Origin: Eubacterium sp.
GTDB lineage: Bacteria; Bacillota; Clostridia; Lachnospirales; Lachnospiraceae
Assembly (NCBI GenBank): GCA_024697845.1
Contig: JAILRZ010000022.1
Location: 1-54,577, forward strand
Reading direction: 5' to 3'
DNA: 54,577 nt
Shown here: piece after piece, positions 4,229-35,407 of the stretch
How positions within the stretch are numbered: position 1 is the stretch's first letter
How the letters are laid out: every line of letters starts with the position of its first letter
Notes under the pieces: model-generated
What the model was told of the DNA's origin: nothing
Database searches by the model: none
Seen by the model: only the letters and a program-made list of their open reading frames with translations
Translations under genes and position numbers: made by a program

Positions 4229-4618
4229 TTACTTTGAACCTTTTTCTTTAAGGTGACGTTTAATTGCATTGAAACTTTCTTTACTTAAAAAATGTTCGAT
4301 TTTACAAGCGTCTTCCAATGCAACTTCCGGGGTTACCCCGAGGTTTATCAACATTTGAGAAAGAATGGTATGACGTTCATAAACACTTTTGGCAATTTTC
4401 TCTCCGGCAGCAGTTAATTCGATAAAACCGCCGTCCTGAACATGAATATAGTCTTTTTCGCGCAAGTTTTTCATTGCCACACTAACGCTGGCTTTAGTGA
4501 AGCCTAATTCGTTTGCAATGTCGATGGAACGAACATTAGCGCTCTTTTCATGCAAAATAAGAATCGTTTCTAAATAGTCCTCCATGGATTCGTTAGAACG
4601 TTGTTTGTTATAGTCCAT
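4229..4618 (-). CDS. DtxR/MntR-family metal-dependent repressor (copy 1)
   Basis: A 129-residue two-domain repressor with an N-terminal winged helix and a dimerisation/metal domain, lacking the C-terminal SH3 domain of DtxR. I start it at 4618 because GGAG lies 8-9 nt upstream. Metal ligands are well kept: D14 and E17 (like MntR D8 and E11), H83 (MntR H77), and C105, E108 and H109 in the DtxR-like CxxEH motif. Cys instead of Glu at that place is the DtxR/IdeR (iron) rather than the MntR pattern. It is divergent from the Gx/apbE genes and convergent with the ABC pair. It is the best candidate for the protein that reads the GTTAG-N6-CTAAC sites. Confidence 0.88.
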   Translation of the reverse strand: MDYNKQRSNESMEDYLETILILHEKSANVRSIDIANELGFTKASVSVAMKNLREKDYIHVQDGGFIELTAAGEKIAKSVYERHTILSQMLINLGVTPEVALEDACKIEHFLSKESFNAIKRHLKEKGSK

Positions 4619-4700: not shown

Positions 4701-5216
4701 ATGAAAAAAGAAAAAAATAATTTTGGTATGAGAAAGATTGCAATTCGTTCCTTACTAGTGGCATTAGCAATGGTGTTGTCTTATGTTGAAAGTCAAATGC
4801 CTGTTGAAGCTTTTGTTCCCGGAATGAAATTGGGATTAACAAATCTTGTGGTAATGGTAGCGCTTTACAGACTGAACGAGAAAGAGGCTATTATAATAAA
4901 TATCATACGGATTTTTTTGGTTGGATTTACCTTTGGAAATATGTTTTCCATTGCGTATAGTTTGGCAGGTGGCATGTTAAGCGGTATTGTAATGATTGCT
5001 TTAAAAAAGACTCAAAAAGTGAGCATGACCACAGTGAGTGTAGCAGGAGGTGTTGCACATAATGTGGGACAAATACTTGTGGCAATGGTTGTTTTAGAAA
5101 CGACAGCTATATTATATTACTTGCTGATTCTATGGATTGCAGGTGTTTTTGCAGGAATTGTAATCGGTGTTCTATCGGCAGAAGTAACCAAACGTTTGCC
5201 CAAAACAATAATTTAA
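4701..5216 (+). CDS. Gx transporter family membrane protein (HepI-like)
   Basis: 171 residues, almost all hydrophobic, with about five membrane segments and the motif FVPGMKLGLTNL. This matches the family annotated as Gx transporter or heptaprenyl diphosphate synthase component I (Pfam Hpre_diP_synt_I), which resembles the membrane S-components of ECF importers. In many Firmicutes it sits beside apbE and FMN-binding-domain genes, as here (apbE follows after 14 nt). A role in supplying flavin or quinone precursor to the extracytosolic redox proteins is inferred; it is not shown by any residue. No iron box lies in the 82-nt gap to the divergent regulator. Confidence 0.8.
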   Translation: MKKEKNNFGMRKIAIRSLLVALAMVLSYVESQMPVEAFVPGMKLGLTNLVVMVALYRLNEKEAIIINIIRIFLVGFTFGNMFSIAYSLAGGMLSGIVMIALKKTQKVSMTTVSVAGGVAHNVGQILVAMVVLETTAILYYLLILWIAGVFAGIVIGVLSAEVTKRLPKTII

Positions 5217-5230
5217 AAAAGGAAGAAAAA

Positions 5231-6277
5231 ATGAAGGACAGGAATTGTTTAATTTTGATCACAATTATCGTGATAGTAGGATTACTGAGCGGTTGCGGGA
5301 AAGAGAAGTACAACGAAAGGGTCAAGGAAGAAAAAATAAAAGCGACAAGGGATATTTTTGCTATGGATACCTATATGACGCTCGTAGCATATGGAGAAAA
5401 GGCAAATGAAGGATTAGATGAAGCGGTGTCGGAAATTCAACGCTTGGATGAGATGTTTAGTGTTGGAAAAGAGGAAAGCGAAGTAAGTATTTTAAATCAA
5501 AATGGCTCTGAAATTGTGTCTGATGAAACAAAGTACCTATTAGAAAAAGCATTAACTATTTATAGAAAAACAGAAGGAAGCTTTGACATTAGTGTTTATC
5601 CTTTGATGGTTGAATGGGGATTTACAAATCAAAAATATAAATTACCCACAAAGGATAAAATAAAGGAGTTATTACAGGGTGTTGATGCATCAAAGATAGA
5701 ACACACAAAGGGAAAAAACTTTGTTTCACTTCCAAAGCAGATGAAAATTGATTTTGGAGGAATTGCGAAAGGGTATACATCTCAGCGCATTATGGAAATA
5801 TTTAAAAAATATAACTTAACCGGAGGTGTTGTTTCTTTAGGGGGAAATGTACAGACTTATGGAAGGAAGCCTGATGGTACAAACTATAAAATAGGCATCG
5901 AAAATCCTTTTGGAGATGAAGGGTACATAGGAGTATTGACCGTGTCAGAACGGGCAGTAATTACGTCAGGAGGCTATGAAAGATTTTTTGAGAAAAACGG
6001 TGTGAAATATCATCATATCTTGGATCCTAAAACCGGTTATCCTGCGGAATCCGGTTTAACCAGTGTGACAATAGTAAACAGTGATGGGACAGAGGCAGAT
6101 GGACTGTCGACCGCTTTATTTGTTATGGGAAAAGAAAAAGCGGTTAACTACTGGAAAAAGAATGGGGAAAAAGATGGATTTGATTTGATTTTAGTAGAAA
6201 AAACGGGGGAAATTACAATTACTTCAGGATTAGAAAAAAGTTTTATATCAGACTATCCTGTAAAAGTAATTCGATAA
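5231..6277 (+). CDS. apbE: FAD:protein FMN transferase, lipoprotein
   Basis: 348 residues. The start at ATG 5231 has AAGGAAG upstream and gives a lipoprotein signal ending in LSGCG. ApbE family landmarks are in order: AMDTYMTL, a DFGGIAKGY segment, SLGGNVQ, HHILDPKTGYP and the C-terminal DGLSTALFVMG region with the metal-binding Asp. ApbE splits FAD and attaches FMN to a Thr in DxxSGATxS motifs of exported proteins. Five such motifs are encoded just downstream (8502-10632), so these are its evident substrates. It is anchored on the outer face of the membrane. Confidence 0.95.
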   Translation: MKDRNCLILITIIVIVGLLSGCGKEKYNERVKEEKIKATRDIFAMDTYMTLVAYGEKANEGLDEAVSEIQRLDEMFSVGKEESEVSILNQNGSEIVSDETKYLLEKALTIYRKTEGSFDISVYPLMVEWGFTNQKYKLPTKDKIKELLQGVDASKIEHTKGKNFVSLPKQMKIDFGGIAKGYTSQRIMEIFKKYNLTGGVVSLGGNVQTYGRKPDGTNYKIGIENPFGDEGYIGVLTVSERAVITSGGYERFFEKNGVKYHHILDPKTGYPAESGLTSVTIVNSDGTEADGLSTALFVMGKEKAVNYWKKNGEKDGFDLILVEKTGEITITSGLEKSFISDYPVKVIR

Positions 6278-6283
6278 TTACCC

Positions 6284-6335
6284 TTGACATATGGGGGAGA
6301 GAATGGTACTCTGTTCTAGGTTAGAGGCTACTAAC
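6284..6335 (+). promoter_or_regulatory. Promoter and iron-box operator of the Tp47/flavin operon
   Basis: TTGACA lies at 6284-6289 with a weak -10 (TACTCT, 6307-6312) after 17 nt. GTTAG (6320-6324) and CTAAC (6331-6335) form the 6-nt-spaced palindrome over the expected start of transcription. TGGGGGAG (6292-6299) and its complement CTCCCCCA (6355-6362) flank the operator and could pair. Confidence 0.65.
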
Positions 6336-6414
6336 TGAATGGAAAAATCATAGACTCCCCCAAAAACAAAAGAAAAAGAGGAATCAGTGAAGATTTTATT
6401 TTTTTTGCCAAAAG

Positions 6415-6430
6415 GTTAGTCGCAACTAAC
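6415..6430. promoter_or_regulatory. Second iron-box operator before the Tp47-like gene
   Basis: GTTAG (6415-6419), 6 nt, CTAAC (6426-6430). It lies between the promoter and the AAGGAGG ribosome site (6448-6454), the same double-site layout as before the ABC pair and feoA. Confidence 0.7.
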
Positions 6431-6459
6431 AATAAGAAATTAAAATAAAGGAGGAAACG

Positions 6460-8418
6460 ATGACAAAACATAATTTCTTAAAAAAAGCTACATCCATTGC
6501 ATTAGCGACTGCGATGGTCTTAACAACATTAACACCATCTGCAATAAGAGCAGGTGAAAGCACGGATGACGGATATGTATATATATCTATGAATGTTCCA
6601 TATAATGATTTTTATAAAAATTATAATCTTACAGACTCTGCGTGCTGGGAAGTTGAAGAAGGGGTAGACGCAGTATCAACAGCGACAACAAGCAAGTTCA
6701 AAGCAACAACAGGCCTTGCAAATGGAACATATAATAATGATAAGTATATTATGGGAGTAACAATCCCAGTTGCAGTGAAGAATGAAGACTTGCAAAAACT
6801 TCAGACTTCTACCAATAACGCATACAAATATGTTGTGCTTGAGCAAAAACCTGAATATTACAGTACTTTGACTATTAAAGAAAATGGTCAGTACGATTTC
6901 TCAAAAATGCAGGAAACAACAATTTCTAAAAACTTTCTTTCTATTAGTGGACTTACATTAACCGGAAGATATGGTGATTACCAGATTGACCTGGATGGTT
7001 TTCGTATGAAGGAACCTAAGGGAATCAAGGTAGGGGAAGATGAATATATTCCTTTTACAATTTATGGAGCGATTTTAAAAACTGAAGATCAAAAGAGTTT
7101 TGGAATGACATGTCTTGAAAACCTTTGGTTTGGTACCAAGGCACCAAATGTTGAAATTGCATGGTCCGTGAAAAACGGTCAGGGAATGAAAAGAGGACAT
7201 GGATCAGGTGGAGAATTCTATCAATTTGATATGAATGGAGCAAAACTGTCCGGAGTGGACGTGATTACAAATTATGGCGTTGTTTCTGTGCCTTGTGATA
7301 TAGCATTACCAAAATATTATGAGGGCAATACCGAGTCCTTAAATGTTTCCATGAAGAACAACTCTAAAGAGTTGCTGATTTCCGGGGTGCCAGCTGATTT
7401 AGAAAACGTCAAAGTTTCCGTATCAGGTGGACTTGCATCGGATGCCCTGATTGCAAACGGAAAAGTTGAACTGAATAGTGAACCGACAGATGGGGTTTCA
7501 TATACAGTAACAATTTCAAGTTCAAATTATGCGGGAATTAGAAGAACAATATCAACTCCAATTACAGAAAGTCAGATTGAAGAATTAAATCAATGGATTT
7601 TAAAGGGAGAAAATGCACTTGAAGCGGAAGAAAACACCAGCTTAAAGAATTCAGTTCAAAAGGCCAAAGATGCAGTATCTTCTAGTGGAACTACTTCTGT
7701 CGATGCAGTGGCAGTTATGAAAGAATTGAAGGCGGCGGTTAAAAAGACTTTTGAAGCTCTGGATGTTCAGGCAACGTTAGTGGGAAATAAAATGTCCATT
7801 GCAATGAACAAAGAGTTGAAGGAACTGAAAAATCCGAAGTATGCATTGACAGTACAAGAGGGAAGAAAAGTAACAACGTTGTCCAGTGGAGTTTTAAACG
7901 CAACAACATATGTGTTGGAAACGACGCCAGTGGTAGGAACAACATATAAGTTGACAATTGAAAGCGACAATTTCCAGGATGCATTGGTAAATGTAATTGC
8001 CACAGAAGGAGTTGCAGAGCCGGAAACAACAGAGCAGAAAGAAACAACGACGGAAAATATTGAAACAACAAAAAAACAGGAAGCAGTAACAAAGAAAACT
8101 GAGAAAAAACCGGTTGTGGGAAAAGCTTCTATCAAAAAGGCGGCAAAGAAGAGAAAGGCGAATAAACTTAGTCTAACCCTGAATAAAGTATCCGGTATTA
8201 ATGGATATGAAATCAGAGTTTATACAACAAATAAAAAAGCAAAGAAAAATAAAGGTGCATTGGTTGTAAAAAAGGTTAAGAAAGCAAATTGCAAAGTAGT
8301 ATCCGCAAAACTAAAGGGAAAGAAAAAAATATTTGTTAGGGTAAGAGCCTACAAAAACTATAAGGGAAGTAAAATTTACGGTGATTGGTCAAAGATTAAA
8401 AAGGTCACTAGTCTGTAA
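6460..8418 (+). CDS. Secreted Tp47-like protein with basic C-terminal module
   Basis: 652 residues. A signal peptide ends near residue 32 (SAIRA). The body resembles the treponemal lipoprotein Tp47: VDAVSTAT matches Tp47 FDAVSRAT, and LPKYYEGN followed by the LLISGVPADL strand matches LPKYEGN with VLTIGGADAETL. Other Firmicute relatives are annotated as Tp47 domain A/C proteins. A helical linker (about 370-430), a second beta domain, a Glu/Thr-rich spacer (about 515-550) and a Lys-rich fibronectin-like module (about 565-652) follow. The last probably holds it to the wall; there is no LPXTG. It is led by two iron boxes and followed by FMN proteins. Iron or haem capture or redox is inferred; penicillin binding, described for Tp47, is unlikely to be the point here. 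Confidence 0.75.
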   Translation: MTKHNFLKKATSIALATAMVLTTLTPSAIRAGESTDDGYVYISMNVPYNDFYKNYNLTDSACWEVEEGVDAVSTATTSKFKATTGLANGTYNNDKYIMGVTIPVAVKNEDLQKLQTSTNNAYKYVVLEQKPEYYSTLTIKENGQYDFSKMQETTISKNFLSISGLTLTGRYGDYQIDLDGFRMKEPKGIKVGEDEYIPFTIYGAILKTEDQKSFGMTCLENLWFGTKAPNVEIAWSVKNGQGMKRGHGSGGEFYQFDMNGAKLSGVDVITNYGVVSVPCDIALPKYYEGNTESLNVSMKNNSKELLISGVPADLENVKVSVSGGLASDALIANGKVELNSEPTDGVSYTVTISSSNYAGIRRTISTPITESQIEELNQWILKGENALEAEENTSLKNSVQKAKDAVSSSGTTSVDAVAVMKELKAAVKKTFEALDVQATLVGNKMSIAMNKELKELKNPKYALTVQEGRKVTTLSSGVLNATTYVLETTPVVGTTYKLTIESDNFQDALVNVIATEGVAEPETTEQKETTTENIETTKKQEAVTKKTEKKPVVGKASIKKAAKKRKANKLSLTLNKVSGINGYEIRVYTTNKKAKKNKGALVVKKVKKANCKVVSAKLKGKKKIFVRVRAYKNYKGSKIYGDWSKIKKVTSL

Positions 8419-8438
8419 TTACTGGAAAACTCAAAAGG

Positions 8439-8467
8439 CTGCGATTCACATTAAGGGTGAATCGCAG
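8439..8467 (+). terminator. Stem-loop between the Tp47-like and FMN genes
   Basis: An 11-bp perfect stem CTGCGATTCAC/GTGAATCGCAG with a 7-nt loop, followed by a short T-rich stretch. It may be a partial terminator or an mRNA-stability element lowering expression of the following flavoprotein genes. It also makes a translation start at 8457 unlikely, supporting the ATG at 8502. Confidence 0.6.
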
Positions 8468-8501
8468 TCCATTGTTTAATAGAAAAAATAATGGAGAAAA
8501 A

Positions 8502-10199
8502 ATGAAAAAAGCAAGAAATTTAAGATTTCTGGTACCCGCGATTATTTGTGCATTTGCAACAATTATTGGGTTTCAAAATAATGTTCCGAATTTGAAAGAA
8601 CATATATTACCGGAGTTGTATGCAAAAGAAGTTAACCAAAAGAATGAAAGAATTGACGTAAAAAAAGAAAAAACCACTTTTAAACCGGAAACTGTTGAAC
8701 GCGAAACATTAGTGGAAGGAACTTATCAGGATGGAGTGTATCGTGGCTCTGCAAAAGGATATGGCGGTATCATAAAAGTTCTAGTGGAAATAAAGGAAGG
8801 GAAAATATTTCGCATTGATGTTGAAGATCATAGCAGTGAAACAGATTCCTATTTTAAAATGGCGGAAAAAATAATTCCCCAAATTATAAAAAAGCAATCG
8901 CCCAATGTTGATACAATTAGTGGCGCGACTTATTCTTCCAACGGAATTAAAAATGCAATCATTGTAGCACTTAATAAGGCTGCAGGAAAGAACAATGTTT
9001 CCGACGATGAAGAGACAATAAAAGAAAAAGAATCGGAGAAAGAAAAAATAAGGAAGGGAACACCGGCAGACGGTGTATTTATGGGAGAAGCACTTTGTGA
9101 GCAGTTTCAATATCAGATTCAAATAAAAGTGAAATTTTCAAAGGGACAGGCTGTTGCAATTACTTCGATGAAACTGATTAACAATGATAATCGGGAAAAT
9201 GTGTCTTATTGTAAAAAGGCATGGAGACCGATGGTTAAAAGAATTTTAAAAAAGCAAAGCAACAATGTGGATACGGTGAGTGGAGCAACGTATTCCTCAA
9301 ATGCAATTAAAGATGCATATATGAATGCACTGGTAAAGGCGATTGAGGCAAACGGTGGAAAAGCTGAGAAAAAGAAGAATTCCCCGACAAAAAACAGTGC
9401 AAAAAAAATATCTGAAAATGAAGAGGCTGGAGTGAAAGGAAAAATCAGGGATGGAGTTTATCTTGTTACGACAACTTGCAATCCGGACGAAAAGAGAGAA
9501 TTCAAATCATATCATCTTACAGCGAAGGTTATATTTAAAGACGGCAAACTGAAAGATATTACCGAGATTTCTTCTGATGCTGAAAGCAATAAAAAATATT
9601 ATCAGTGGGCTGCATCGGGACGAAATAATCAAAAAGGTGTTATAGAACAACTGATTTCAAACCAATCAACGAAAAATTTAAGTGCTGTGAGTGGAGCAAC
9701 CTGTTCATCCATTTCCTGCAAGAACATCTACTTAACCGCTTTAAAAATGGCTCAGGGAGAGACAATTAAAGAGGAAGAAAGCTGTATCATTCCAACGGAA
9801 AATGAACAGCAGACTTGGGGAGACAGAGAATATGAAGCGTCAGAAAATGAAAAAGTGATTCAAACTTCAGCATGGGTGTATGCAATAGAAGATGAATATG
9901 GGGATTATGATTTTGAGGATTACGAATTATTTGCAAATGTCATATTCGAGAATGGAAAAATTAAAGATATCAGAGTTATAGATTGTGATAATTTGGCAAA
10001 TCTATTCTATTGCGAAAAGGCAATACGAGGAACGGAATCGGAGAAAGGAATGCTCAGCAAATTTTTGCAGTTAGAAAAGGAAGAAACGGACGTTGTCAGT
10101 GGAGCAACCTGTACGTCGGAAGCACTTAAAACGATATATAAAAACGCTGTAATAATTTACGAGGAAATGTTTGGGAAAAATGAAAATATTCAGAATTAA
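8502..10199 (+). CDS. Membrane-anchored protein with four covalent-FMN domains
   Basis: 565 residues with an N-terminal membrane anchor (about 6-25), then four FMN_bind domains spaced about 120-137 residues apart. The ApbE acceptor motifs centre on Thr143 (DTISGATYSS), Thr263 (DTVSGATYSS), Thr400 (SAVSGATCSS) and Thr536 (DVVSGATCTS). The Asp of the motif is replaced by Ser in domain three. Acidic and Lys-rich linkers separate the domains. It resembles PplA (two FMN domains) of Gram-positive extracellular electron transfer, but has twice as many flavins and a membrane helix instead of a lipobox. The start is chosen at GGAG/ATG 8502. It overlaps the next gene by 20 nt. It probably relays electrons across the wall. 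Confidence 0.9.
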   Translation: MKKARNLRFLVPAIICAFATIIGFQNNVPNLKEHILPELYAKEVNQKNERIDVKKEKTTFKPETVERETLVEGTYQDGVYRGSAKGYGGIIKVLVEIKEGKIFRIDVEDHSSETDSYFKMAEKIIPQIIKKQSPNVDTISGATYSSNGIKNAIIVALNKAAGKNNVSDDEETIKEKESEKEKIRKGTPADGVFMGEALCEQFQYQIQIKVKFSKGQAVAITSMKLINNDNRENVSYCKKAWRPMVKRILKKQSNNVDTVSGATYSSNAIKDAYMNALVKAIEANGGKAEKKKNSPTKNSAKKISENEEAGVKGKIRDGVYLVTTTCNPDEKREFKSYHLTAKVIFKDGKLKDITEISSDAESNKKYYQWAASGRNNQKGVIEQLISNQSTKNLSAVSGATCSSISCKNIYLTALKMAQGETIKEEESCIIPTENEQQTWGDREYEASENEKVIQTSAWVYAIEDEYGDYDFEDYELFANVIFENGKIKDIRVIDCDNLANLFYCEKAIRGTESEKGMLSKFLQLEKEETDVVSGATCTSEALKTIYKNAVIIYEEMFGKNENIQN

Positions 10200-10632
10200 A
10201 TTTTTGAACTGCTTATTAGTTATTGTGACGTTGCTAGTGTATCAAGGTTATGCGTTGCAACGGGAAAAAGAAGTTCAGGCTTTTAACAAAAAAAACAGGG
10301 AAGAAAAAAGAGCGTGGGAAAAGGAATCAATTCGTCTTAGTGGTGGATTACGTAAAGCAATGTATAGCGATGGCGAATATGAGGGGGAAGGAAAAGGTTT
10401 TGGCGGACCGATTTCAGTAAAAGTTGTTATAAGCAATGATGAAATTCAGTCTGTGAAAATCATTGCAGCCAAGGATGAAACACCGGAGTATGTTGAAATG
10501 ATGGATTCTTTAACTGAAGAAATTATTGCGGGACAAAGTACAGATGTTGACGTGATTAGTGGTGCGACTTTTTCTTCAAAAGGAGTTCTTGAAGCGGTAA
10601 ACAATGCTTTATCGAAGGCAGGTAAAAAATGA
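10180..10632 (+). CDS. Small membrane-anchored FMN-binding protein
   Basis: 150 residues. A signal anchor (about 6-24) is followed by a charged helix and one FMN_bind domain with the acceptor Thr130 in DVISGATFSS. The phrase GEYEGEGKGFGGPI is a typical domain start. ATG 10180 overlaps the upstream gene by 20 nt, and its TGA overlaps the ATG of the polyferredoxin gene (ATGA), so the three are translationally coupled. Likely the first flavin carrier on the outer face, between the polyferredoxin and the four-flavin protein (inferred from order). Confidence 0.88.
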   Translation: MKIFRIKFLNCLLVIVTLLVYQGYALQREKEVQAFNKKNREEKRAWEKESIRLSGGLRKAMYSDGEYEGEGKGFGGPISVKVVISNDEIQSVKIIAAKDETPEYVEMMDSLTEEIIAGQSTDVDVISGATFSSKGVLEAVNNALSKAGKK

Positions 10633-11423
10633 AAGAAAAAACAAGTAGAGTGAATATCATACAAAAAAGAAAACGAAAAGCTGCATTTGTAAAATGGATT
10701 AGAATCGCAGTTCAAATGATGTTTTTGGTACTGATTCCCGCAGTGTTTTCCCAAGCGTTTGGAGCCGTGAAAGATATTGCAGAAACAATTGGCAGAGGTG
10801 AAAGTATTTCCTGGACAATATTCACTACAAAATTTGCAGTGTTATGTTTGGCAACGATGGTTTTAGGAAGGGTGTTTTGTGGATGGGCCTGTGCCTTTGG
10901 TGCTCTGGGAGACTGGCTGTATCAGATAGGGCAGGCAATTCAAAAGAAGAGCGGAAAGAAATTGCCGGTGATGCCTGAAAAAATACAGGTTATATTACAA
11001 AAAATGAAATATATTGTTTTGTTACTGATTCTGGTGATTTGTTTTTTTGGTGAAACACAGCTAATTGCCCAATTCAGCCCGTGGACCGTTTTTTCATTAA
11101 TTACATCCGGAGGTGAATTTGGTGGATATAAATATTCAATCATTGCAATTGTATTTGTAATGATTGGTATGATTTATAAAGAAAGATTTTTCTGCCAATT
11201 TCTATGTCCGCTCGGAGCAATTTTTTCTCTGTTGCCACAATGGTCTTTTTTTAAATTGAAACGAAATCAGGAAAAATGTATACCAAATTGTACATTGTGT
11301 AAAAGGAACTGTCCGGTTCATATAAAACTGCAGGAGGAAGAATACAGGGAAGGGGAATGTATCATGTGTGGAAGATGCAAATATGGATGCCCTAAAAATA
11401 ATATTAAAATAAAAATGAAATAA
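10629..11423 (+). CDS. NapH/MauN-like polyferredoxin membrane protein
   Basis: 264 residues with about four membrane helices, two membrane-edge motifs (GRVFCGWACAFGALGDW and RFFCQFLCPLGAIFSLL), then two C-terminal four-cysteine sets (CTLCKRNCP and CIMCGRCKYGCP) for 4Fe-4S clusters. This is the layout of NapH, MauN and related quinol- or ferredoxin-linked electron-entry proteins. With the FMN proteins upstream it should pass electrons from cytosol or membrane to the outer flavins. It is the last gene of the operon before the feoA promoter. Confidence 0.9.
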   Translation: MKEKTSRVNIIQKRKRKAAFVKWIRIAVQMMFLVLIPAVFSQAFGAVKDIAETIGRGESISWTIFTTKFAVLCLATMVLGRVFCGWACAFGALGDWLYQIGQAIQKKSGKKLPVMPEKIQVILQKMKYIVLLLILVICFFGETQLIAQFSPWTVFSLITSGGEFGGYKYSIIAIVFVMIGMIYKERFFCQFLCPLGAIFSLLPQWSFFKLKRNQEKCIPNCTLCKRNCPVHIKLQEEEYREGECIMCGRCKYGCPKNNIKIKMK

Positions 11424-11427
11424 TGTA

Positions 11428-11481
11428 TTGACAGCATTGGTTAGTTGTGCTAAACTCTAGCTGGTTAGAGGTGTCTAACCA
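11428..11481 (+). promoter_or_regulatory. feoA promoter with double iron box
   Basis: TTGACA (11428-11433) and TAAACT (11451-11456) are spaced 17 nt, the same pair as before the ABC genes. An imperfect site (GTTAG 11440-11444, then TAAAC where CTAAC is expected) lies between them. A perfect site with 7-bp arms (11462-11468 and 11475-11481, 6-nt spacer) covers the start of transcription. Confidence 0.78.
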
Positions 11482-11515: not shown

Positions 11516-11728
11516 ATGAGCTTAGAGGAAGCTGTTGTAGGAGAAGAATATATTGTAAAAGAAATCCTGTCAGATGATGAAGAGTTGAAGAATTTTTTAT
11601 TTTCATTAGGGTGTTACAGTGGAGAACCAATTACGGTCATATCTCACATCAAAGGAGGGTGTGTGGTGTCCATTAAAGATGCCAGATATAATATTGACAC
11701 CGATTTGGCGAAAGCTATTTCGATATAA
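11516..11728 (+). CDS. feoA: Ferrous iron transport protein A
   Basis: 70 residues, a small SH3-like FeoA domain (MSLEEAVVGEEYIV...GCYSGEPITVISHIKGGCVVSI), which binds and tunes FeoB in the cytosol. The start at ATG 11516 follows AAGGTGGG by 7 nt. It is followed by a strong terminator and a separate operator before feoB, so here feoA is not simply the first gene of a feoAB transcript. Confidence 0.9.
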   Translation: MSLEEAVVGEEYIVKEILSDDEELKNFLFSLGCYSGEPITVISHIKGGCVVSIKDARYNIDTDLAKAISI

Positions 11729-11764: not shown

Positions 11765-11788
11765 AAAAGTTAGTTATAACTAACTTTT
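11765..11788. promoter_or_regulatory. Iron-box operator before feoB
   Basis: A perfect inverted repeat, AAAAGTTAG (11765-11773) and CTAACTTTT (11780-11788), with a 6-nt spacer: the longest arms of the set together with site 498-521. It lies about 40 nt before feoB, pointing to independent control. A clear -35/-10 pair is not evident. Confidence 0.75.
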
Positions 11789-11827: not shown

Positions 11828-13819
11828 ATGAGAATTGCGTTGACGGGAAATCCAAATAGTGGAAAAACCACAATGTACAATGCGTTGACGGGGCGAAATG
11901 AAAAAATCGGAAACTGGGCAGGAGTAACAGTTGATCGAAAGGAAAGTGAAATCAAGAAGGGATATTATCGCGGAAATCAGGAGGTGATTGCGGTAGACCT
12001 TCCGGGAGCTTATTCCATGTCCCCTTTCACATCGGAGGAAAGTATTACAAGCTCTTATGTGAAAAATGAAAATCCGGACGTCATCATTAACATTGTTGAC
12101 GCAACAAACTTAAGTCGTAGTTTGTTTTTTACAACTCAGCTTTTAGAATTAGGGATACCGGTAGTTGTTGCCTTAAACAAAAGTGACATTAATGAGAAAA
12201 AAGGTACGGCAATCAATACAGATATTCTATCAGAAAAATTAGGATGTCCGGTTGTTGTAACAGTATCAACATCTAATAAAGGGCTAAAAGAAATCGTGGA
12301 GAAAGCTATAGAAGTAGCGGGAACAAAGCAAAAAGCACCTTATGAACAAGGGCAAATTAACCTTCACGATAAGGACGAGGTTGAGAAAGCAGACCGCAAA
12401 CGTTTTGAGTTTGTAAAAACCATTGTTAAGGATGTTGAGAGTAGAAAAGTTCTGACAAAAGATAAAACTTTTGGAGATAAAGTTGATAAAGTTCTAACGC
12501 ATCCGATTTCTGGAATTTTAATCTTTGCAGCCGTTATGTTTATGGTATTTTATATTTCTCAGTCGACTCTGGGAACCTGGCTTTCAGAAATCCTGGCAGG
12601 ATGGATTGAAGATTTTCAGGGCTATGTGGGCGATAAGATGTCAAATGCCAATCCGTTGCTTTATGCATTGTTAGTTGACGGTATCATTGGTGGTGTTGGT
12701 GCCGTTGTAGGATTCTTACCATTAGTAATGGTAATGTATTTCCTGATTGCATTGTTGGAAGACTGTGGATACATGTCAAGAGCAACGGTTGTGCTGGATC
12801 CGATTTTTAAAAGAGTAGGACTTTCCGGAAAATCCGTAATTCCAATGATTATTGGAACCGGTTGTGGAATTCCGGCAATTATGGCGTGTAGAACAATTCG
12901 TAATGAAAGAGAACGAAGAACCACCGCAATGCTTGCAACCTTTATGCCTTGTGGGGCAAAACTTCCGGTAATTGCTTTGTTCGCCGGAGCATTCTTTAAA
13001 GATGCAGCTTGGGTTGGACCTTTGATGTATTTTGTAGGTATTTTGTTGATTTTACTTGGCGCTTTGTTAATTAAAGCCATTACAGGAATGAAGTACAGAA
13101 AATCCTTCTTTATCATAGAACTTCCTGAATACAAAGTGCCAAGTCTCAAATTAGCGATTGCATCTATGTTAGAGCGAGGAAAGGCATATATTATCAAGGC
13201 AGGAACGATTATCCTTGTATGTAATACAGCAGTTCAGATTATGCAATCCTTTGATACACATTTCCACGTAGTAAAAGAAGGAATGGAAAACACTTCAATT
13301 CTTGCAACAATTTCAACTCCGTTTGCATACTTACTGGTACCAATTGTTGGATTTGCAGCATGGCAATTAGCAGCAGCAGCGATTACAGGATTTATTGCAA
13401 AAGAAAACGTTGTAGGAACATTGGCAACCGTTTATGCATTGACTAATTTCATTGATACAGAAGAATTAGAATTGGTAGGTAGTGGTAGTTCTGTTGCAAC
13501 AGTGATGGGGCTTACAAAAGTAGCAGCATTGGCATATCTGATGTTTAACCTTTATACTCCTCCATGTTTTGCGGCATTGGGAGCGTTAAATTCAGAATTG
13601 CAGAGTGGAAAGTGGTTATTAGGGGCTATTTGCTTGCAGTTAGCTACAGGATTTACCATTGGATTTTTAGTATTTCAGGTTGGAACACTTGCAACAACAG
13701 GTTCTTTAGGAGCTGGATTTGTTCCGGGGTTGATTGCAGTGGCAGTATTTGCAGCAGTGATTGTATACCTGATCATCAAAGCAAATAAAAAATTAGATCA
13801 GGAGTATGCATTGAAATAA
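11828..13819 (+). CDS. feoB: Ferrous iron permease with G domain
   Basis: 663 residues. An N-terminal GTPase carries G1 GNPNSGKTT (7-15), G3 DLPGAYSM and G4 NKSD (117-120). A helical GDI-like segment, two Gate repeats (region with EDCGYMSRATVVLD, GTGCGIPAIMACRT and FMPCGAKLPV) and a C-terminal membrane part with FIAKENVVGTL follow. It imports Fe2+ across the cytoplasmic membrane. It has its own iron box and is followed by the Cys-rich partner and a DtxR-like gene, so it probably forms a feoB-partner-regulator operon. It is full length with no broken motif. Confidence 0.96.
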   Translation: MRIALTGNPNSGKTTMYNALTGRNEKIGNWAGVTVDRKESEIKKGYYRGNQEVIAVDLPGAYSMSPFTSEESITSSYVKNENPDVIINIVDATNLSRSLFFTTQLLELGIPVVVALNKSDINEKKGTAINTDILSEKLGCPVVVTVSTSNKGLKEIVEKAIEVAGTKQKAPYEQGQINLHDKDEVEKADRKRFEFVKTIVKDVESRKVLTKDKTFGDKVDKVLTHPISGILIFAAVMFMVFYISQSTLGTWLSEILAGWIEDFQGYVGDKMSNANPLLYALLVDGIIGGVGAVVGFLPLVMVMYFLIALLEDCGYMSRATVVLDPIFKRVGLSGKSVIPMIIGTGCGIPAIMACRTIRNERERRTTAMLATFMPCGAKLPVIALFAGAFFKDAAWVGPLMYFVGILLILLGALLIKAITGMKYRKSFFIIELPEYKVPSLKLAIASMLERGKAYIIKAGTIILVCNTAVQIMQSFDTHFHVVKEGMENTSILATISTPFAYLLVPIVGFAAWQLAAAAITGFIAKENVVGTLATVYALTNFIDTEELELVGSGSSVATVMGLTKVAALAYLMFNLYTPPCFAALGALNSELQSGKWLLGAICLQLATGFTIGFLVFQVGTLATTGSLGAGFVPGLIAVAVFAAVIVYLIIKANKKLDQEYALK

Positions 13820-13838: not shown

Positions 13839-13994
13839 ATGGAAAATATCATTATTTCTATAATACTAGTTTTAATTGTTGGCTTTGCGATTTTTTATAT
13901 AGTAAAAGAAAAAAAGAAGGGGCGTCGATGCATTGGCTGCCCGTCATCAGGAAAATGTTCGCGAAAACAATGCGGATGTGGAAAAGAAAAATAA
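13839..13994 (+). CDS. FeoB-associated Cys-rich membrane protein
   Basis: A 51-residue protein: one membrane helix (about 4-22), a KEKKKGRR stop-transfer, then CIGCPSSGKCSRKQCGCGKEK with five cysteines. This is the pattern of the FeoB-associated Cys-rich family (Pfam PF12669), small proteins in the place FeoC takes in enterobacteria. AAAGG 7 nt upstream picks ATG 13839; an in-frame ATG at 13833 is too close to it. It starts 19 nt after feoB and ends 1 nt before the next ATG. It may guide iron or hold a metal or Fe-S centre at the FeoB cytoplasmic mouth. Confidence 0.9.
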   Translation: MENIIISIILVLIVGFAIFYIVKEKKKGRRCIGCPSSGKCSRKQCGCGKEK

Positions 13995-13995
13995 T

Positions 13996-14376
13996 ATGGC
14001 TGAAAAAAGATTTGCAGATAGTTCAAAAGAAGATTATTTAAAAACAATTCTTAAAATTATAAGAGAAAAGGATAAATGTCGTGTAATAGACATATCCCGG
14101 CAACTAAATGTGACAAAGGCCAGTGCTAGTATCGCTGTGAAAAAACTGGAAGGAGCAGGGTTGATTTGGAAAGAAAAAAACAACCTGTTACTGACAGAAG
14201 AAGGTGAGAAAATTGCGGAGAAAATTTATGAACGGGGGAATTTTTTTGAAGCCTGGTTTGAAAAAATAGGGATTGATGAGGAAACCGCAAAAGAAGATGC
14301 TTGTGCAATTGAGCATGTGTTGTCAGAAATGACATATTCCAAAGTTAAGGAATATGTAAAAAATACTGAAAAATAA
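13996..14376 (+). CDS. DtxR/MntR-family regulator with altered metal site (copy 2)
   Basis: 126 residues, a short two-domain relative of the regulator at 4229-4618. I take ATG 13996 because its N-terminus then matches copy 1 in length; a TTG at 13933 would run through the Cys-rich gene. The CxxEH part is kept (C103, E106, H107) and D13 is kept, but the MntR E11 position is Lys16 and the H77 position is Gly81. The first metal site therefore looks damaged or changed. It is cotranscribed with feoB, 1 nt after the partner gene. It may be a regulator with another cue, or one that tunes copy 1 by heterodimerising. Confidence 0.85.
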   Translation: MAEKRFADSSKEDYLKTILKIIREKDKCRVIDISRQLNVTKASASIAVKKLEGAGLIWKEKNNLLLTEEGEKIAEKIYERGNFFEAWFEKIGIDEETAKEDACAIEHVLSEMTYSKVKEYVKNTEK

Positions 14377-22379: not shown

Positions 22380-23723
22380 ATGAAAAGATTTTGGATAGTT
22401 ATATGTATCCTTGTCATTGGCGTCCAACCGGTGTCGGCAGCTGTTCCGGCCTGGACGGAGGTTGATGGTATTTATTATAACGATAAAGGCGAAGTGATTG
22501 AAGGTGCGGTTTCCAAAGGAATCGACGTCAGCAAGCACCAAGGGAAAATAGATTGGGCAAAGGTAAAGCAGACAGACATCAATTTTGCCATTATCCGTTG
22601 CGGATATGGGGATGACTATACATTCCAGGATGATGAATATTTTGCAACCAATGTAAAAGGGTGTGAAACCAATCATATTCCTTATGGAATCTACATCTAT
22701 TCTTATGCCACTAATACGACTATGGCAAAAAGTGAAGCGAATCATGTGCTGCGACTAATCAATCAGACCGGAGCAAAACCGACCATGCCGGTTTATTATG
22801 ATTTGGAGGATTCCTCGCAGGAAAATCTGACTGCAAAGAAATTTGGAGATATTGCAGAAACTTTTTGTAATATAATTATGTCCAAGGGATATACGGTGGG
22901 AGTTTATGCCAGCTTATACTGGTGGAATACAAAACTGACAGATTCCCGCTTTAACAATTGGTTTAAGTGGGTGGCACAGTACAATTCCAAGTGCGCCTAT
23001 GAAGGTGCCTATGATATGTGGCAGTATTCTTCCACGGGAAAAGTGAATGGAATTTCGGGAAATTCGGATATGAATATTCTTCTAACAAAGAACTGCAGTA
23101 TGGGAGGACATGTGGACGTTATCGTTTCTTCCACAGGAAAAGCATCACCGGAAAAAAGTGCGACCATTACCTATAAATGCAATCTTTGTGGGCGCCAAAG
23201 AACCCAGATTGTATATCGTGCAAAGAAGGTTTCCTTAAGCAAGAAAACCTATCGATATACCGGAAAAGAAAATAAACCAAAGGTTACGATTCGGGATTCT
23301 AAGGGAAATGTGATTTCTTCAAAGAATTATACTGTGACTTACAAAAATCATATCAAGCCGGGGCAGGCTAAAGTGATTATTAATTTCAAGAACCTGTATG
23401 AAGGTACTGTTACAAGAACCTTTACAATCAAACCGGCAAAGGCGGTTTTATCTTCCATCAAAAATGTGAAACGCAAGAAAATGATTGTGAAATGGAAAAA
23501 AGCAAAAGGTGCGGATGGTTACGAAGTCGGGTGTGCCAATAACAAGGCAATGACCAAAGGGTTGAGAGTAGCTAACGTGAAGGCACCGAAAAAGACAAAG
23601 ACGATTAAGAAACTGAACCTGTGGCAGAAATATTATATCAGAGTTCGTGCATATAAGAAAATCAATGGTGTAAAGGTGTATGGTTATTGGAGCAGTAAAA
23701 AGCATCTTGTCATCACAAAATAA
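22380..23723 (+). CDS. Secreted GH25 muramidase with basic FN3-like tail
   Basis: 447 residues. Signal peptide to about residue 20, then a GH25 lysozyme-type catalytic domain (about 45-245) with D49 in KGIDVSKHQG and the D141/E143 pair in YYDLEDSS, the expected active-site acids. YDMWQYSSTGKV closes the barrel. A Cys pair (CNLCGRQR), an Ig/FN3-like domain and a Lys-rich FN3 module (about 358-447, ending in YIRVRAYK...YGYWSS) follow. It should cut peptidoglycan glycan strands, in wall remodelling or against other bacteria. It faces the two-component genes. Confidence 0.9.
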   Translation: MKRFWIVICILVIGVQPVSAAVPAWTEVDGIYYNDKGEVIEGAVSKGIDVSKHQGKIDWAKVKQTDINFAIIRCGYGDDYTFQDDEYFATNVKGCETNHIPYGIYIYSYATNTTMAKSEANHVLRLINQTGAKPTMPVYYDLEDSSQENLTAKKFGDIAETFCNIIMSKGYTVGVYASLYWWNTKLTDSRFNNWFKWVAQYNSKCAYEGAYDMWQYSSTGKVNGISGNSDMNILLTKNCSMGGHVDVIVSSTGKASPEKSATITYKCNLCGRQRTQIVYRAKKVSLSKKTYRYTGKENKPKVTIRDSKGNVISSKNYTVTYKNHIKPGQAKVIINFKNLYEGTVTRTFTIKPAKAVLSSIKNVKRKKMIVKWKKAKGADGYEVGCANNKAMTKGLRVANVKAPKKTKTIKKLNLWQKYYIRVRAYKKINGVKVYGYWSSKKHLVITK

Positions 23724-29805: not shown

Positions 29806-32691
29806 ATGAGAACGAATCATAAGAAAATGCTTGCACTTGGAATGAGTATGGCAATGGTTGTGTCATCATTGAGCATTTCAAATATCGCAGTTCGAGGCGA
29901 TATGACAATAGCACAGATGGTTTCTAATGCACAGTATAATCTGGCATTGGGAAAAAATATTACAGCGAATCCAACGAGACAGGAAGGATCGGAAAAAGCC
30001 CTGTCTGACGGACAGTTTAAGGAACATGCGGCAACTACTTTTGGAGCGGCAAACACTTATTACGAAATTGATTTGGGAGCAGTTTACGATGCTTCCACAT
30101 TAGATAAATTAGTTGTTTCTTATAAAGAAAAGAACGATGGAGATACCCCGATTAATGGATATCAGATTCGTTATTCAGCCAATGGGCTGGATTATACAAC
30201 GGTAAAAAGTATAACCGGTACATCCGTGAAAGCACAGATTACTACAGAGAATCTCCTGGAGGAAGAAGATATTTCAGGAGTTGAAGGAGCGGTTCGATTT
30301 ATTCGTCTTGTATATCCGAATGCATATACCTGGGGAATTCAGGCAAATGAAATTGCAATTTTGGACACAGACCAGAACAAAGCTTTTGCTGAAGTTGATG
30401 AATGTGCAGACGCAAAAGGGGTGACAGTATCTTCTGAAGATTACAATCAGGTTTCCTACGAAATAGAAGCAGGAGAAAATCAGGACGGATTTAAATATTT
30501 GGTATACCTTGTGAACAATAATGGAAGCAAGTTGATTGGAAACGGTGTGGAAGCTGGCAAAAAATATACAGTAGACAGTGTTGTGGCCGGAACTTATACA
30601 TTGCAAGTTGTTGCATGCTATGACGGAGCAGCATCCAAGGGCATTGAAAGTGAGAGGGTTTCCGTGGCAGATGTGGCATCTTTGGTTCAGTCCAAAAGAA
30701 ATGTGGCAAATACTGCTTATTCTAAATATGGACCTCAGATTTCTGATGTAAAAACTTTCTATAACGGACATACAATTACGACAGCTCAGAAAGCTGTAGA
30801 TGGAAAATTGTCTACCGGAGAGGGTTCAGAGGTTGCTTTAAGAACTGCGGAAGGTTCTCCACAGTATTTTGTAATTAATTTAGGAGAGTATTATACTCCT
30901 TCCGAAATGCAGGAAGTCATTCTTGCATATACCAATGCAAACACCTATGCATCTGATGCAAAAATAGAATTTTCATTCGATGGAGAAAACTATGTTGAGG
31001 TGGGAACTGCCACAGGATATAAGTTCTCTCAGGTTGAAAATAATTGTGCATTGTCCAGAGTAAAATTAAATAAATTGGCGAACTATACAGAAAAGGCTGT
31101 TCGTTTTGTAAAGGTTACATTATCCGGTGGTGTTAGTGCCTGGGGATATGTTGTCAATGAAGTGGGCGTAATTGCGAACACAGATGCTCCTACCGTTGTG
31201 GGCTCCAATATTCCTGAAGCAGCAGATGTTATAGTAGAACAGAGGAAATTGGAAGAAATCAGCTATCAGATTATTGCTTCTGAAGGACAGGAAGATGCAA
31301 CTTATCAGGTATTGCTTGGAACGACAGTAATCAATAAGGAAGCAAAAGCAGGAACGATATATACGTATTCCGGTGTTGCATCCGGAGATTATGACCTGAA
31401 GATATGTACCGTTGAAGACGGTTGGCTTTCTAAGGGAATTACAAAAAAGGTTACAGTGGAAGGATATGTTGACCGCATTGAGACTTCTTTGAATTTGGCA
31501 TTAGTGAGAGAACATTCGGAAGTAACGGTAACAACAGATGCAGATAATAAGACATATGAAGATTTGGATCCGAAAGGTCCGATTGGACAGGATATTTCCG
31601 GTGGTGTAGGATGTGTTAACGATGGAATTTGGTGGAATCACAGTCATCATACAGGATATCTTCAAACCCGACCGGATCGAAAACTTGTGAATGTTGAATA
31701 TGATCTTGGAAAAGATTATCAGCCGACAGACATTCATTCCATTATCAGTGCTTATTCTGATGCAGGAACTGCTGCAACAAAGTTTGAAATCTTTTTCTCA
31801 GCAGATGGACAGAACTATGAATCTGTTTATAAAGCAACAAATGCACAGTTTGAAAAGTTTATGGTAAGCATTCCGGATGTATCAAAATACACACAGGAAT
31901 CCGTTCGTTATATTAAATATCAGATGCAGGACGGACCATTCGGATTATATACCGATACAGATGCAAACGGAAATCCAAACTATTCCGCAATCGGCTACTT
32001 ACTTTGCGAATTAGCAGTAATGGGAGACGAAAGTTTATTGCCTGAAAAGGTAATGGATGTAACAGCAACTTCAGATAATTACAATGAAATTACTGTAAAC
32101 TGGACAGATGTTGCCCAGGAAGATTGTGCTTACACAGTTTATTTAGATGGAGTTCGCAGAGGATTGAACATTGAAAAAGGTGTGGGAACAGTAACATTCC
32201 CTGGAATCAGTGCAGGAACACATAAGGTTAAGGTAGCGTCTGTAGCAAACGGAATGGTTAATTACTCCAAAGAAGTATCTGTAGTAGTCACAGCAGAACC
32301 TACAACAGCGCCTCCAAAAACAGAAAAGCCTACGACAGTGAAACCGGAAACAACAAAACCAGTCGTAACAAAGAAACAGGAAGTGACAACAAAGAAAGCT
32401 CCGGTTGTAAAGGTTGCCCCTTCCAAAGTGAAAAAGATTAAAGTTTCAAAGAGAAAAGCGACAATTCTATTGTCAACAGTGAAGGGTGCCAGTGGTTATG
32501 AAATCAGATATTCCCTGAAAAAGAATATGAAGAATAAGAAGACCAAAACAGTAACGACCCCGAAAGCTGAAATTAAGAAACTGAAATCAAAGAAGGTATA
32601 CTTCTTTAGTGTAAGAACCTTTAAAAAGGTTCGGGGAAAAGTTGTTTACAGTGCCTGGAGTAAACCTAAGAAAAGTAAAAAAATAAAATAA
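29806..32691 (+). CDS. Secreted protein with three discoidin-like domains
   Basis: 961 residues from ATG 29806 (AAGGAGG 8 nt upstream). Signal peptide to about 31. Three F5/8 type C (discoidin) like domains at about 40-195, 285-460 and 565-750 (NLALGKNITANPT; YEIDLGAVYDA; YFVINLGEYYTPSE; VEYDLGKDYQPTD) alternate with Ig/FN3-like domains. A Thr/Pro/Lys spacer and the basic FN3 module (about 870-961) end it. Discoidin domains bind galactose- or glucan-type carbohydrate, so it is a likely surface glycan-binding protein. No catalytic domain is seen. Confidence 0.85.
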   Translation: MRTNHKKMLALGMSMAMVVSSLSISNIAVRGDMTIAQMVSNAQYNLALGKNITANPTRQEGSEKALSDGQFKEHAATTFGAANTYYEIDLGAVYDASTLDKLVVSYKEKNDGDTPINGYQIRYSANGLDYTTVKSITGTSVKAQITTENLLEEEDISGVEGAVRFIRLVYPNAYTWGIQANEIAILDTDQNKAFAEVDECADAKGVTVSSEDYNQVSYEIEAGENQDGFKYLVYLVNNNGSKLIGNGVEAGKKYTVDSVVAGTYTLQVVACYDGAASKGIESERVSVADVASLVQSKRNVANTAYSKYGPQISDVKTFYNGHTITTAQKAVDGKLSTGEGSEVALRTAEGSPQYFVINLGEYYTPSEMQEVILAYTNANTYASDAKIEFSFDGENYVEVGTATGYKFSQVENNCALSRVKLNKLANYTEKAVRFVKVTLSGGVSAWGYVVNEVGVIANTDAPTVVGSNIPEAADVIVEQRKLEEISYQIIASEGQEDATYQVLLGTTVINKEAKAGTIYTYSGVASGDYDLKICTVEDGWLSKGITKKVTVEGYVDRIETSLNLALVREHSEVTVTTDADNKTYEDLDPKGPIGQDISGGVGCVNDGIWWNHSHHTGYLQTRPDRKLVNVEYDLGKDYQPTDIHSIISAYSDAGTAATKFEIFFSADGQNYESVYKATNAQFEKFMVSIPDVSKYTQESVRYIKYQMQDGPFGLYTDTDANGNPNYSAIGYLLCELAVMGDESLLPEKVMDVTATSDNYNEITVNWTDVAQEDCAYTVYLDGVRRGLNIEKGVGTVTFPGISAGTHKVKVASVANGMVNYSKEVSVVVTAEPTTAPPKTEKPTTVKPETTKPVVTKKQEVTTKKAPVVKVAPSKVKKIKVSKRKATILLSTVKGASGYEIRYSLKKNMKNKKTKTVTTPKAEIKKLKSKKVYFFSVRTFKKVRGKVVYSAWSKPKKSKKIK

Positions 32692-33745: not shown

Positions 33746-35407
33746 TTAACGGGTTCGAATTCGTTTGGTTTTGGACCATTCTCCTTTTTTATATTGATTA
33801 AATCCACGAATACGGACGTAGTATTTCTTTTTCTTTTGAATATCTTTGATTCGGACCTTATAAACAGAAGTATCAGGTAAAGTCAGTTTCTTAACATTCT
33901 TTTTGAAATTCTTTTTGGTACAATACTGAATCTGAAAACCGGTGGCCTGATCCTTTTTGAAATGTTTCCAGGTTAAGTAGATGTGTTGCTTTTTCTTGTT
34001 GTATTTTGCAACCTTGAAAACTTCCTGCATTGGTTTTGGATTCTTCTTTGTTTTGACAGAACGGATGCTGCTCCATTTTCCATAACCTAAATTGCTTATG
34101 TAGGCGCGCATACGGAAATAGTATGTTTCTCCGTAAGCAAGTTTCTTGAAGGTCTTTTTTAAGGTTTCCGGCTTGGAAATCTGTTTAAAAATTAGTCCGG
34201 TCTTAAAGGACTTATCCGTAGTGTAAACAATGGTATAGCCGGATATTTTTCTTTGACTGTCCCAAGTCAGAACAATGGAATTAAAATCCTTCAAAACAGC
34301 TTTCAGTTTTTCTTTTTTAGGAAGAATTAGAAATTGTTTTTTGACAGAACTGACATATTGAATGTTCTTGCCCTTTACCTTGACTGTAGCTTTGCCGGGA
34401 TACTTATTGGACGAATAACTAACCGTGTATTGATTTTTTGGAACAATCTTTCCGTTTACTGTTAATGTAACGGTTGGTTTTAAGCTTTTTCCGGTGGTGT
34501 AAAGAACGTTTTGATTCAAGGTAATGGTTCCTTTGGATATGGAAATGTAGCCGTTGTTTTCCGGATGATTCGTATGGATTTTCCCATCTTTAATTGTCAG
34601 CAGGACATTGCCGTCCGTGGTTCGGTAAGTTTTGATGAAACGTTTTGCAAGGCGAATCAACATCGAAGCACGGGGGAGTTGTGCCGTTTTTGCTGCAGAG
34701 GAAGAAATTACTGCATATTGAGGTTTAACAGCATCCAAAAAAGCAGAACAGGTTGAAGAACCAGCTCCGTGATGTCCAACCTTTAGAACATCGGCCTTAA
34801 AATTATATCCCTGCTTCATTAACGAGTTTTCCATTACCGATGGAAGATCACCGGTGAGCAGAATTGATTTTCCGTCACAGGTTACTCTTAAAACGATACT
34901 GCATTCGTTGTAGGTAGTTCCCTGAAATCCATCATAAACAACCTCGACGGTTGCATCTCCTAATTTCCAGGTCTCATTTTCTATAGGAGTTCGAAGTGGA
35001 TAATGGTGGTCTTTAGCGTTTTGAATAAAATCAGTAAAACTACTGGATTCTTTGGTACAAGGAGAATAAATTATTTGCTTGACCTTGTAATGATCAAAAA
35101 TAGAAGCAAAACCGCCAACATGGTCACCGTCCGGATGGGTAGCAACTGCGTAATCAATCTGATTATCCGGAATATTCAAAGCATCGAGGTAAGCAAGGAC
35201 CTCCGGTGTCGTATCCTGAAAACCGCTATCCACAAGCATATAGTGGTGATTGCTTTCTAAAATCAGACAATCTCCACTTCCGACATAAATTGCATGAAAG
35301 TTCAATTCTCCTGCTAAAACATTATATGGATTGAAATAAAAAATCATTGCCATGACAAATAGAAATCCAATGCGGGAAAACTGCTTCTTGATAGATCTAT
35401 AATTCAT
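33746..35407 (-). CDS. Secreted ComEC-type metallo-beta-lactamase protein with FN3 tail
   Basis: 553 residues from ATG 35407. An N-terminal membrane/signal segment (about 12-33), then a metallo-beta-lactamase fold of the ComEC C-terminal type (about 35-300): VDSGFQDT, THPDGDHVGG, ILLTGD and VGHHGAGSST give the metal ligands. An Ig-like domain and two Lys-rich FN3-like domains follow. Stand-alone secreted relatives are predicted nucleases or phosphodiesterases. The gene overlaps the upstream membrane-protein gene by 11 nt. The internal competence channel of ComEC is absent. Confidence 0.85.
   Translation of the reverse strand: MNYRSIKKQFSRIGFLFVMAMIFYFNPYNVLAGELNFHAIYVGSGDCLILESNHHYMLVDSGFQDTTPEVLAYLDALNIPDNQIDYAVATHPDGDHVGGFASIFDHYKVKQIIYSPCTKESSSFTDFIQNAKDHHYPLRTPIENETWKLGDATVEVVYDGFQGTTYNECSIVLRVTCDGKSILLTGDLPSVMENSLMKQGYNFKADVLKVGHHGAGSSTCSAFLDAVKPQYAVISSSAAKTAQLPRASMLIRLAKRFIKTYRTTDGNVLLTIKDGKIHTNHPENNGYISISKGTITLNQNVLYTTGKSLKPTVTLTVNGKIVPKNQYTVSYSSNKYPGKATVKVKGKNIQYVSSVKKQFLILPKKEKLKAVLKDFNSIVLTWDSQRKISGYTIVYTTDKSFKTGLIFKQISKPETLKKTFKKLAYGETYYFRMRAYISNLGYGKWSSIRSVKTKKNPKPMQEVFKVAKYNKKKQHIYLTWKHFKKDQATGFQIQYCTKKNFKKNVKKLTLPDTSVYKVRIKDIQKKKKYYVRIRGFNQYKKGEWSKTKRIRTR

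Follow-up and report, generated by a model that had tools for sequence, protein, structure and literature searches.

The NapH-like flavinylated systems described in PMC8238504 combine a polyferredoxin of the PF12801 family with a clustered gene for the flavin transferase ApbE and with separate FMN_bind proteins, providing a transmembrane iron-sulphur route to extracytosolic flavins. The same article covers large FIVAR-containing surface proteins as well as multi-flavinylated proteins, PMC11334425 treats the structural variety of such systems, and PMC10339131 reports a crystal structure for a clostridial protein, CbFMN4, that carries four flavin mononucleotide (FMN) groups. In the part of PMC8238504 that covers NapH-like systems, the reactions of most members are called unknown, and links to iron uptake are drawn for other classes. 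Here we describe a NapH-like locus from Eubacterium sp. (Lachnospiraceae) that lies beside genes for ferrous iron transport. It was found in a stretch of 54,577 nucleotides (contig JAILRZ010000022.1 of assembly GCA_024697845.1, positions 1 to 54,577 of the forward strand), which we refer to as the window. Based on sequence and predicted structure, we propose that this operon encodes an iron-regulated cell-surface reductase of Fe(III) or haem that would feed FeoAB for iron acquisition, a reading to which we give a probability of about 0.6. We further propose that a secreted protein with the fold of Treponema pallidum Tp47 is part of it.

A NapH-like flavin chain

Profile searches confirmed the five genes that a first-pass annotation, made from the sequence alone, had assigned to this chain, all on the forward strand. 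They encode an EetB-type (Gx) subunit of a flavin adenine dinucleotide (FAD) exporter (4701-5216; PF07456, E 8e-39), ApbE with a lipoprotein-like start (5231-6277; PF02424, E 1e-86; a lipobox-like LSGC was seen by eye), a long FMN_bind protein with a hydrophobic N-terminal helix (fmn4, 8502-10199; PF04205), a membrane-anchored protein with one FMN_bind domain (fmn1, 10180-10632, start ATG at 10180; PF04205, E 2e-18) and a NapH-like polyferredoxin (10629-11423; PF12801 over cut-off, NapH models below cut-off). The chain as first drawn left out the gene at 6460-8418, which we consider its most informative part and discuss below.

The FMN_bind proteins carry five S-G-A-T threonines at the residues predicted, namely Thr143, 263, 400 and 536 in the long protein and Thr130 in the short one. 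Pfam run on the long protein alone marks three FMN_bind stretches, and in a search of the whole genome all four score, the third just under the family cut-off. The structural model (mean predicted local distance difference test score, pLDDT, of 72) likewise has four units, each of three strands and a helix; compared with the PDB, they resemble the covalent-FMN domains 8p2b, 3o6u and 8p2a more than anything else. With more than one FMN_bind domain (PF04205 stretches and four motifs) and a hydrophobic N-terminal helix that places it outside the cytosol, the long protein falls in the multi-flavinylated class. Its best match in both sequence and fold is domain 1 of CbFMN4 (8p2b), a secreted protein that also has four FMN_bind domains; the abstract of PMC10339131 mentions neither iron regulation nor a surface partner for it. 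The polyferredoxin has two four-cysteine cluster motifs, in line with the two 4Fe-4S sites suggested at first, plus two C-x3-C motifs. All 12 motif cysteines are invariant in the window protein and in 17 aligned relatives (17 of 45 were taken into the alignment). As a PF12801 protein beside apbE and FMN_bind genes, it fits the description of a NapH-like flavinylated system given in PMC8238504.

The locus had been set apart from the Listeria-type extracellular electron transfer locus as lacking Ndh2 and EetAB. For Ndh2 this is correct: neither it nor a quinone-prenyl gene is found among the neighbours, by profile search from position 638 on the upstream side through feoB and the second repressor on the other, and by eye for genes farther away. 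For EetB it is wrong, because the Gx protein belongs to PF07456, the family of EetB, which PMC9973259 describes as the FAD-binding subunit of a Listeria FAD exporter feeding ApbE. The two loci thus share ApbE and the exporter subunit, and that article also places eetB genes beside some NapH-like systems. They differ at the point of electron entry, which in the window is the NapH-like protein. The EetB-type protein matched no PDB sequence. As for its partner EetA, which we take to be a NusG_II-type (PF07009) protein, no NusG_II protein was seen in the window, and one adjoins gx in three related loci (L057, L059 and L158). A second ApbE gene lies elsewhere in the genome (C35:17191-17988; L148).

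A Tp47-fold surface protein belongs to the system

The gene at 6460-8418 (forward strand) encodes a secreted surface protein with a core (residues 37-380) and a C-terminal repeat domain. The core is modelled with a pLDDT of 91 and its best fold match, well above other folds, is Tp47 of T. pallidum (1o75), a protein titled a penicillin-binding protein by its reference. The fold is the same, but sequence identity is 16%: the protein does not match PF14889 or PF14888 up to E 0.01, and neither family is among the hits of the core up to E 1. Similarly, a profile of the core finds no PDB sequence up to E 1, the full window protein reaches 1o75 only weakly at E 0.94, and Pfam returns weak mixed hits on the core. 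The C-terminal part has matches among other proteins encoded in the same genome. A Lys-rich C-terminal domain with W-S-K-type repeats occurs in several secreted proteins of the window (8000-8415, 23000-23720, 32200-32690 and 34000-35400) and is probably a wall-binding module of this group.

Using the core as query, we collected 77 related loci, which represent the best 80 of 192 matches; the 38 shorter than 15 kb do not enter the counts on long loci (n = 39). A separate FMN_bind gene lies near the core in 36 of the 39 long loci, not counting FMN_bind domains fused to core frames, and apbE and napH are each found nearby in 29. Across 250 genomes, 20 have both the core and a close NapH, 9 the core only and 4 NapH only, at a NapH cut-off of E 1e-80 that was chosen after the list was inspected (at 0.001, 233 of the 250 match) and with one genome that holds core and NapH fragments together on one contig (G053, C19) counted as core only. 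In two of the four genomes with NapH only (G027 and G014), a Tp47_a-type surface protein stands behind napH. A search for Tp47_a across 341 genomes of the class gave two hits, the strong one being the surface protein encoded behind napH in L149.

Fusions provide a further link. In relatives, the core occurs in one polypeptide with FMN_bind and with bona fide Tp47_a and Tp47_c domains. For example, a Eubacterium ramulus protein (L052) reads, in order, FMN_bind, core, a Shr-like haemoglobin-interacting domain, Tp47_a, Tp47_c and choline-binding repeats. Among seven further surface proteins, which like the E. ramulus protein were picked by hand and are not a random sample, Tp47_a and Tp47_c occur in six (Tp47_a at E 6e-64 or better), FMN_bind in four and a haemoglobin-interacting domain in five, and the loci of all seven contain genes for NapH, ApbE and FMN_bind. 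We also considered that the Tp47-like gene might be a chance neighbour and rejected this on the co-localisation in related loci, the co-occurrence across genomes and the fusions. Judged by these comparisons, the Tp47-like gene belongs to the system.

The chain could instead act on another surface substrate, for instance disulphides or an organic acceptor, with nothing but its expression tied to iron, as NapH-like modules serve many oxidoreductases according to PMC8238504 and the Tp47 fold has no settled activity. However, the haemoglobin-interacting domains of the chosen relatives and the feo genes in the regulon described below speak for iron or haem, and we regard such a substrate as improbable.

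Shared operators link the chain to ferrous iron uptake

Directly downstream of napH, on the same strand, are feoA (11516-11728; PF04023, E 6e-13), the ferrous iron transporter gene feoB (11828-13819; TIGR00437 over cut-off), a gene for a FeoB-associated Cys-rich membrane protein (13839-13994; PF12669, E 3e-9) and a DtxR/MntR-family repressor gene found by profile search (13999-14376). Another repressor gene of this family (dtxR, 4229-4618, reverse strand; PF02742 and PF01325 over cut-off) is divergent from gx. No other gene of the genome exceeds the cut-off for this family; a third match falls below it.

The window has six exact copies of the palindrome GTTAG-N6-CTAAC (starting at 502, 605, 6320, 6415, 11464 and 11769), compared to 0.063 expected from base composition. 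Two of them (6320-6335 and 6415-6430) precede the tp47-like gene, the first just downstream of a promoter-like TTGACA-17-TACTCT (6284-6312, forward strand) that was read directly and is not in the consensus-scan listing. A similar unit of a promoter-like TTGACA-17-TAAACT (11428-11456) and an operator (11464-11479) precedes feoA (11428-11479 as a whole, forward strand), and one operator precedes feoB (11769-11784). The whole genome (2.41 Mb) has nine exact operators, six of which are in the window; as 2.8 are expected from base composition, the other three may have arisen by chance. The 77 related loci (1.17 Mb) together contain 75 exact operators, spread over 40 loci, whereas each of 13 control patterns or spacings gave 0 to 2. 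Most (59 of 75) are closely followed by a core, FMN_bind, apbE or feo gene, and an operator lies within 300 bp of 31 of 76 core frames versus 7 of 319 other frames. Chance was therefore rejected as the origin of the operators, for exact matches only. We infer from sequence both that DtxR-type repressors bind this site and which metal they answer to.

The choice of metal deserves attention, given that both repressors score best against MntR models, though below cut-off. A regulon answering to manganese, with a chain that serves manganese or general metal stress, seems very unlikely to us in light of the nine of 75 operators in related loci, and two in the window, that stand directly before feoA or feoB. 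The same operators bear on a second alternative, in which the chain carries out respiratory extracellular electron transfer for redox balance and iron control reflects only that Fe(III) serves as an acceptor or that flavins are preferred under iron shortage. Respiration or longer-distance transfer is what PMC8238504, in its discussion of multi-flavinylated proteins and NapH-like systems, proposes for them, and relatives have a large, anchored surface protein. Against this explanation, the operator also stands before feoA and feoB, here and in relatives, the iron uptake gene feoB lies next door, and a NapH-like entry that itself needs iron-sulphur clusters is an odd way to spare iron. We consider this explanation unlikely, if the more serious of the two.

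The remaining operators of the window, at 502 and 605, precede an ATP-binding cassette exporter-type gene pair (PF00664 and PF00005; 502-4151), which is probably in the same regulon and perhaps handles a siderophore or haem. Elsewhere in the genome, one exact operator (C162:349; L065:349-364) is just 5' of a methyltransferase-like frame that is cut by the contig end (LCM, PF04072, E 3e-5, barely over cut-off). Two more (C17:15902, or L063:7903, and C94:7061), one of them before an enolase-like frame identified by eye, are within chance expectation.

An ApbE-like motif without glycine in the core

Residues 70-76 of the Tp47-like core read D-A-V-S-T-A-T (6667-6687, forward strand), which resembles the ApbE recognition motif D-x-x-[S/T]-G-A-[S/T] reported in PMC12052999 except that glycine is missing. 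To describe its conservation we used 157 core rows, dropped the 29 that do not cover the motif and were left with 128; the motif was not among the patterns by which the loci were found. D-x-x-[ST]-x-A-T is present in 125 copies, with the threonine and the [ST] position each kept in all 128 and the aspartate in 127. Therefore the core fits the ApbE motif at its other positions in 125 copies and at the glycine position in none, where the window protein has Thr and the copies as a whole have Ser (95), Thr (18), Arg (9), Tyr (5) or Phe (1). At the aligned place, T. pallidum Tp47 has D-A-V-S-R-A-T (aligned with the Tp47 domain of the E. ramulus protein). The RnfD-family and RnfG-like proteins of this genome read D-A-[VI]-S-S-A-T.

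Is a flavin attached here? The invariant Thr and [ST] would favour this, as would the model of the core, which is least confident at the motif loop (model residues 44-50), and the FMN_bind domains without glycine in the same loci. The low confidence may stem in part from an insertion just before the motif in the window protein. In the related loci, 194 of 247 separate FMN_bind hits have glycine, 34 have another residue (Arg, Asn, Ser, His and others) and 19 have no motif, so that the complete lack of glycine in 128 cores counts against a flavin. In one test reported in PMC12052999, replacing Gly by Ala or Ala by Val cut flavinylation to about half. Additionally, five NapH-less cores among 11 further ones read D-x-V-[ST]-S-[VP]-T, in which Ala has become Val or Pro while D, S/T, T and K are kept. 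An apbE gene is present in the same stretch for five of the six cores that keep the alanine and for one of the five that have lost it, and those five look like one clade; the one with apbE is L155, where the gene is about 5 kb off, and it was not counted as such in the Fisher test (0.015). On balance, a flavin on the core motif is conceivable from the sequence, with the odds somewhat against it.

A broader proposal, which we put forward tentatively and with less confidence than that, is that the Tp47 fold forms the outer end of flavin-based iron acquisition, where the substrate is held, and that the invariant loop either carries FMN attached by ApbE or binds a flavin or an iron ligand. On this view, T. 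pallidum Tp47 would itself be a flavin-linked redox or metal protein or would derive from one. In the parts of the literature that our search covered, we found nothing that ties Tp47 to a flavin.

Electron entry

A UbiA-family enzyme was not found in the genome, which is 95% complete, by a search that was positive in 14 of 14 control genomes. This makes quinol an unlikely electron donor, and reduced ferredoxin or flavodoxin would be the natural one. Rnf-type genes are present in this genome (C165; L066).

The entry protein itself varies among relatives. In five NapH-less loci (L153, L154, L155, L158 and L159), a core lipoprotein is followed by an FMN_bind protein. In the three of these that were read, the FMN_bind protein has a long membrane half, which Pfam leaves unnamed in the two scanned and which by eye only looks MsrQ-like or DUF4405-like. 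Operators precede the core in the NapH-less loci L153, L156 and L158, the latter two also having gx and apbE. Since the core is kept in these NapH-less loci, it seems to be the constant part of the system and the membrane entry the exchangeable one.

A model for reductive iron acquisition

The DNA shows which parts are present, how they are ordered and that they share operators, and we connect them in the following proposed sequence. When iron is low, a DtxR-type repressor would leave GTTAG-N6-CTAAC and allow tp47-like, fmn4, fmn1, napH, feoA and feoB to be expressed together. The EetB-type protein would help to export FAD, and ApbE would tie FMN to the five S-G-A-T threonines. Low-potential cytosolic electrons, from ferredoxin or flavodoxin rather than quinol, would enter the NapH-like protein, cross the membrane through its iron-sulphur centres and reach first the one-FMN protein and then the four-FMN protein. 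The Tp47-fold protein would form the outer end, holding an Fe(III) complex, haem or haemoglobin near the flavins and perhaps bearing a flavin of its own at the D-x-x-[ST]-x-A-T loop. The resulting Fe2+ would enter through FeoAB.

The first-pass annotation had already favoured a ferric or haem reductase feeding FeoB, and this stays the best reading. It gains support from the operator that tp47-like, feoA and feoB share here and in relatives, from the haemoglobin-interacting domains of fused relatives and from the failure to find a UbiA-family enzyme; what changes is that Gx is of the EetB type, that gx-apbE lacks an exact operator and that the Tp47-like gene is added. Several observations weigh on the other side. 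Among the 77 related loci, only 13 contain feo genes (11 of the 39 long ones). The iron-regulon operators attributed to the locus are in place before tp47-like, feoA and feoB, and no exact operator is found between dtxR and gx, that is, before gx-apbE. If one mismatch is allowed, operators are not enriched in the genome (25 hits, while the reversed pattern gives 94). The window protein lacks the haemoglobin-interacting domain, and a Pfam name is no proof of haem use. One locus (L157, genome G072) has the core with no FMN_bind, apbE or napH in 16 kb. Lastly, at 95% completeness the absence of UbiA is not certain.

Implications

NapH-like and multi-flavinylated systems were known before. By genome comparison, the operon described here, with its proposed Tp47-fold tip, is real, conserved and iron-linked. 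Tp47, FeoB and DtxR do not appear in the main text of PMC8238504 or PMC11334425, and in the literature searched, which excludes most subscription papers, we found nothing on point that combines a Tp47-fold tip with an iron-regulated flavin chain.

The locus occurs in gut Lachnospiraceae, including E. ramulus, Coprococcus comes, Coprococcus catus and Fusicatenibacter. Common as NapH-like and multi-flavinylated systems are, most have not been assigned a job, and an iron-linked operon gives one class of them a testable function, reductive iron release at the Gram-positive surface. What surprises is to meet the Tp47 fold in the outer component, a role that would give this puzzling fold a functional setting outside spirochaetes.

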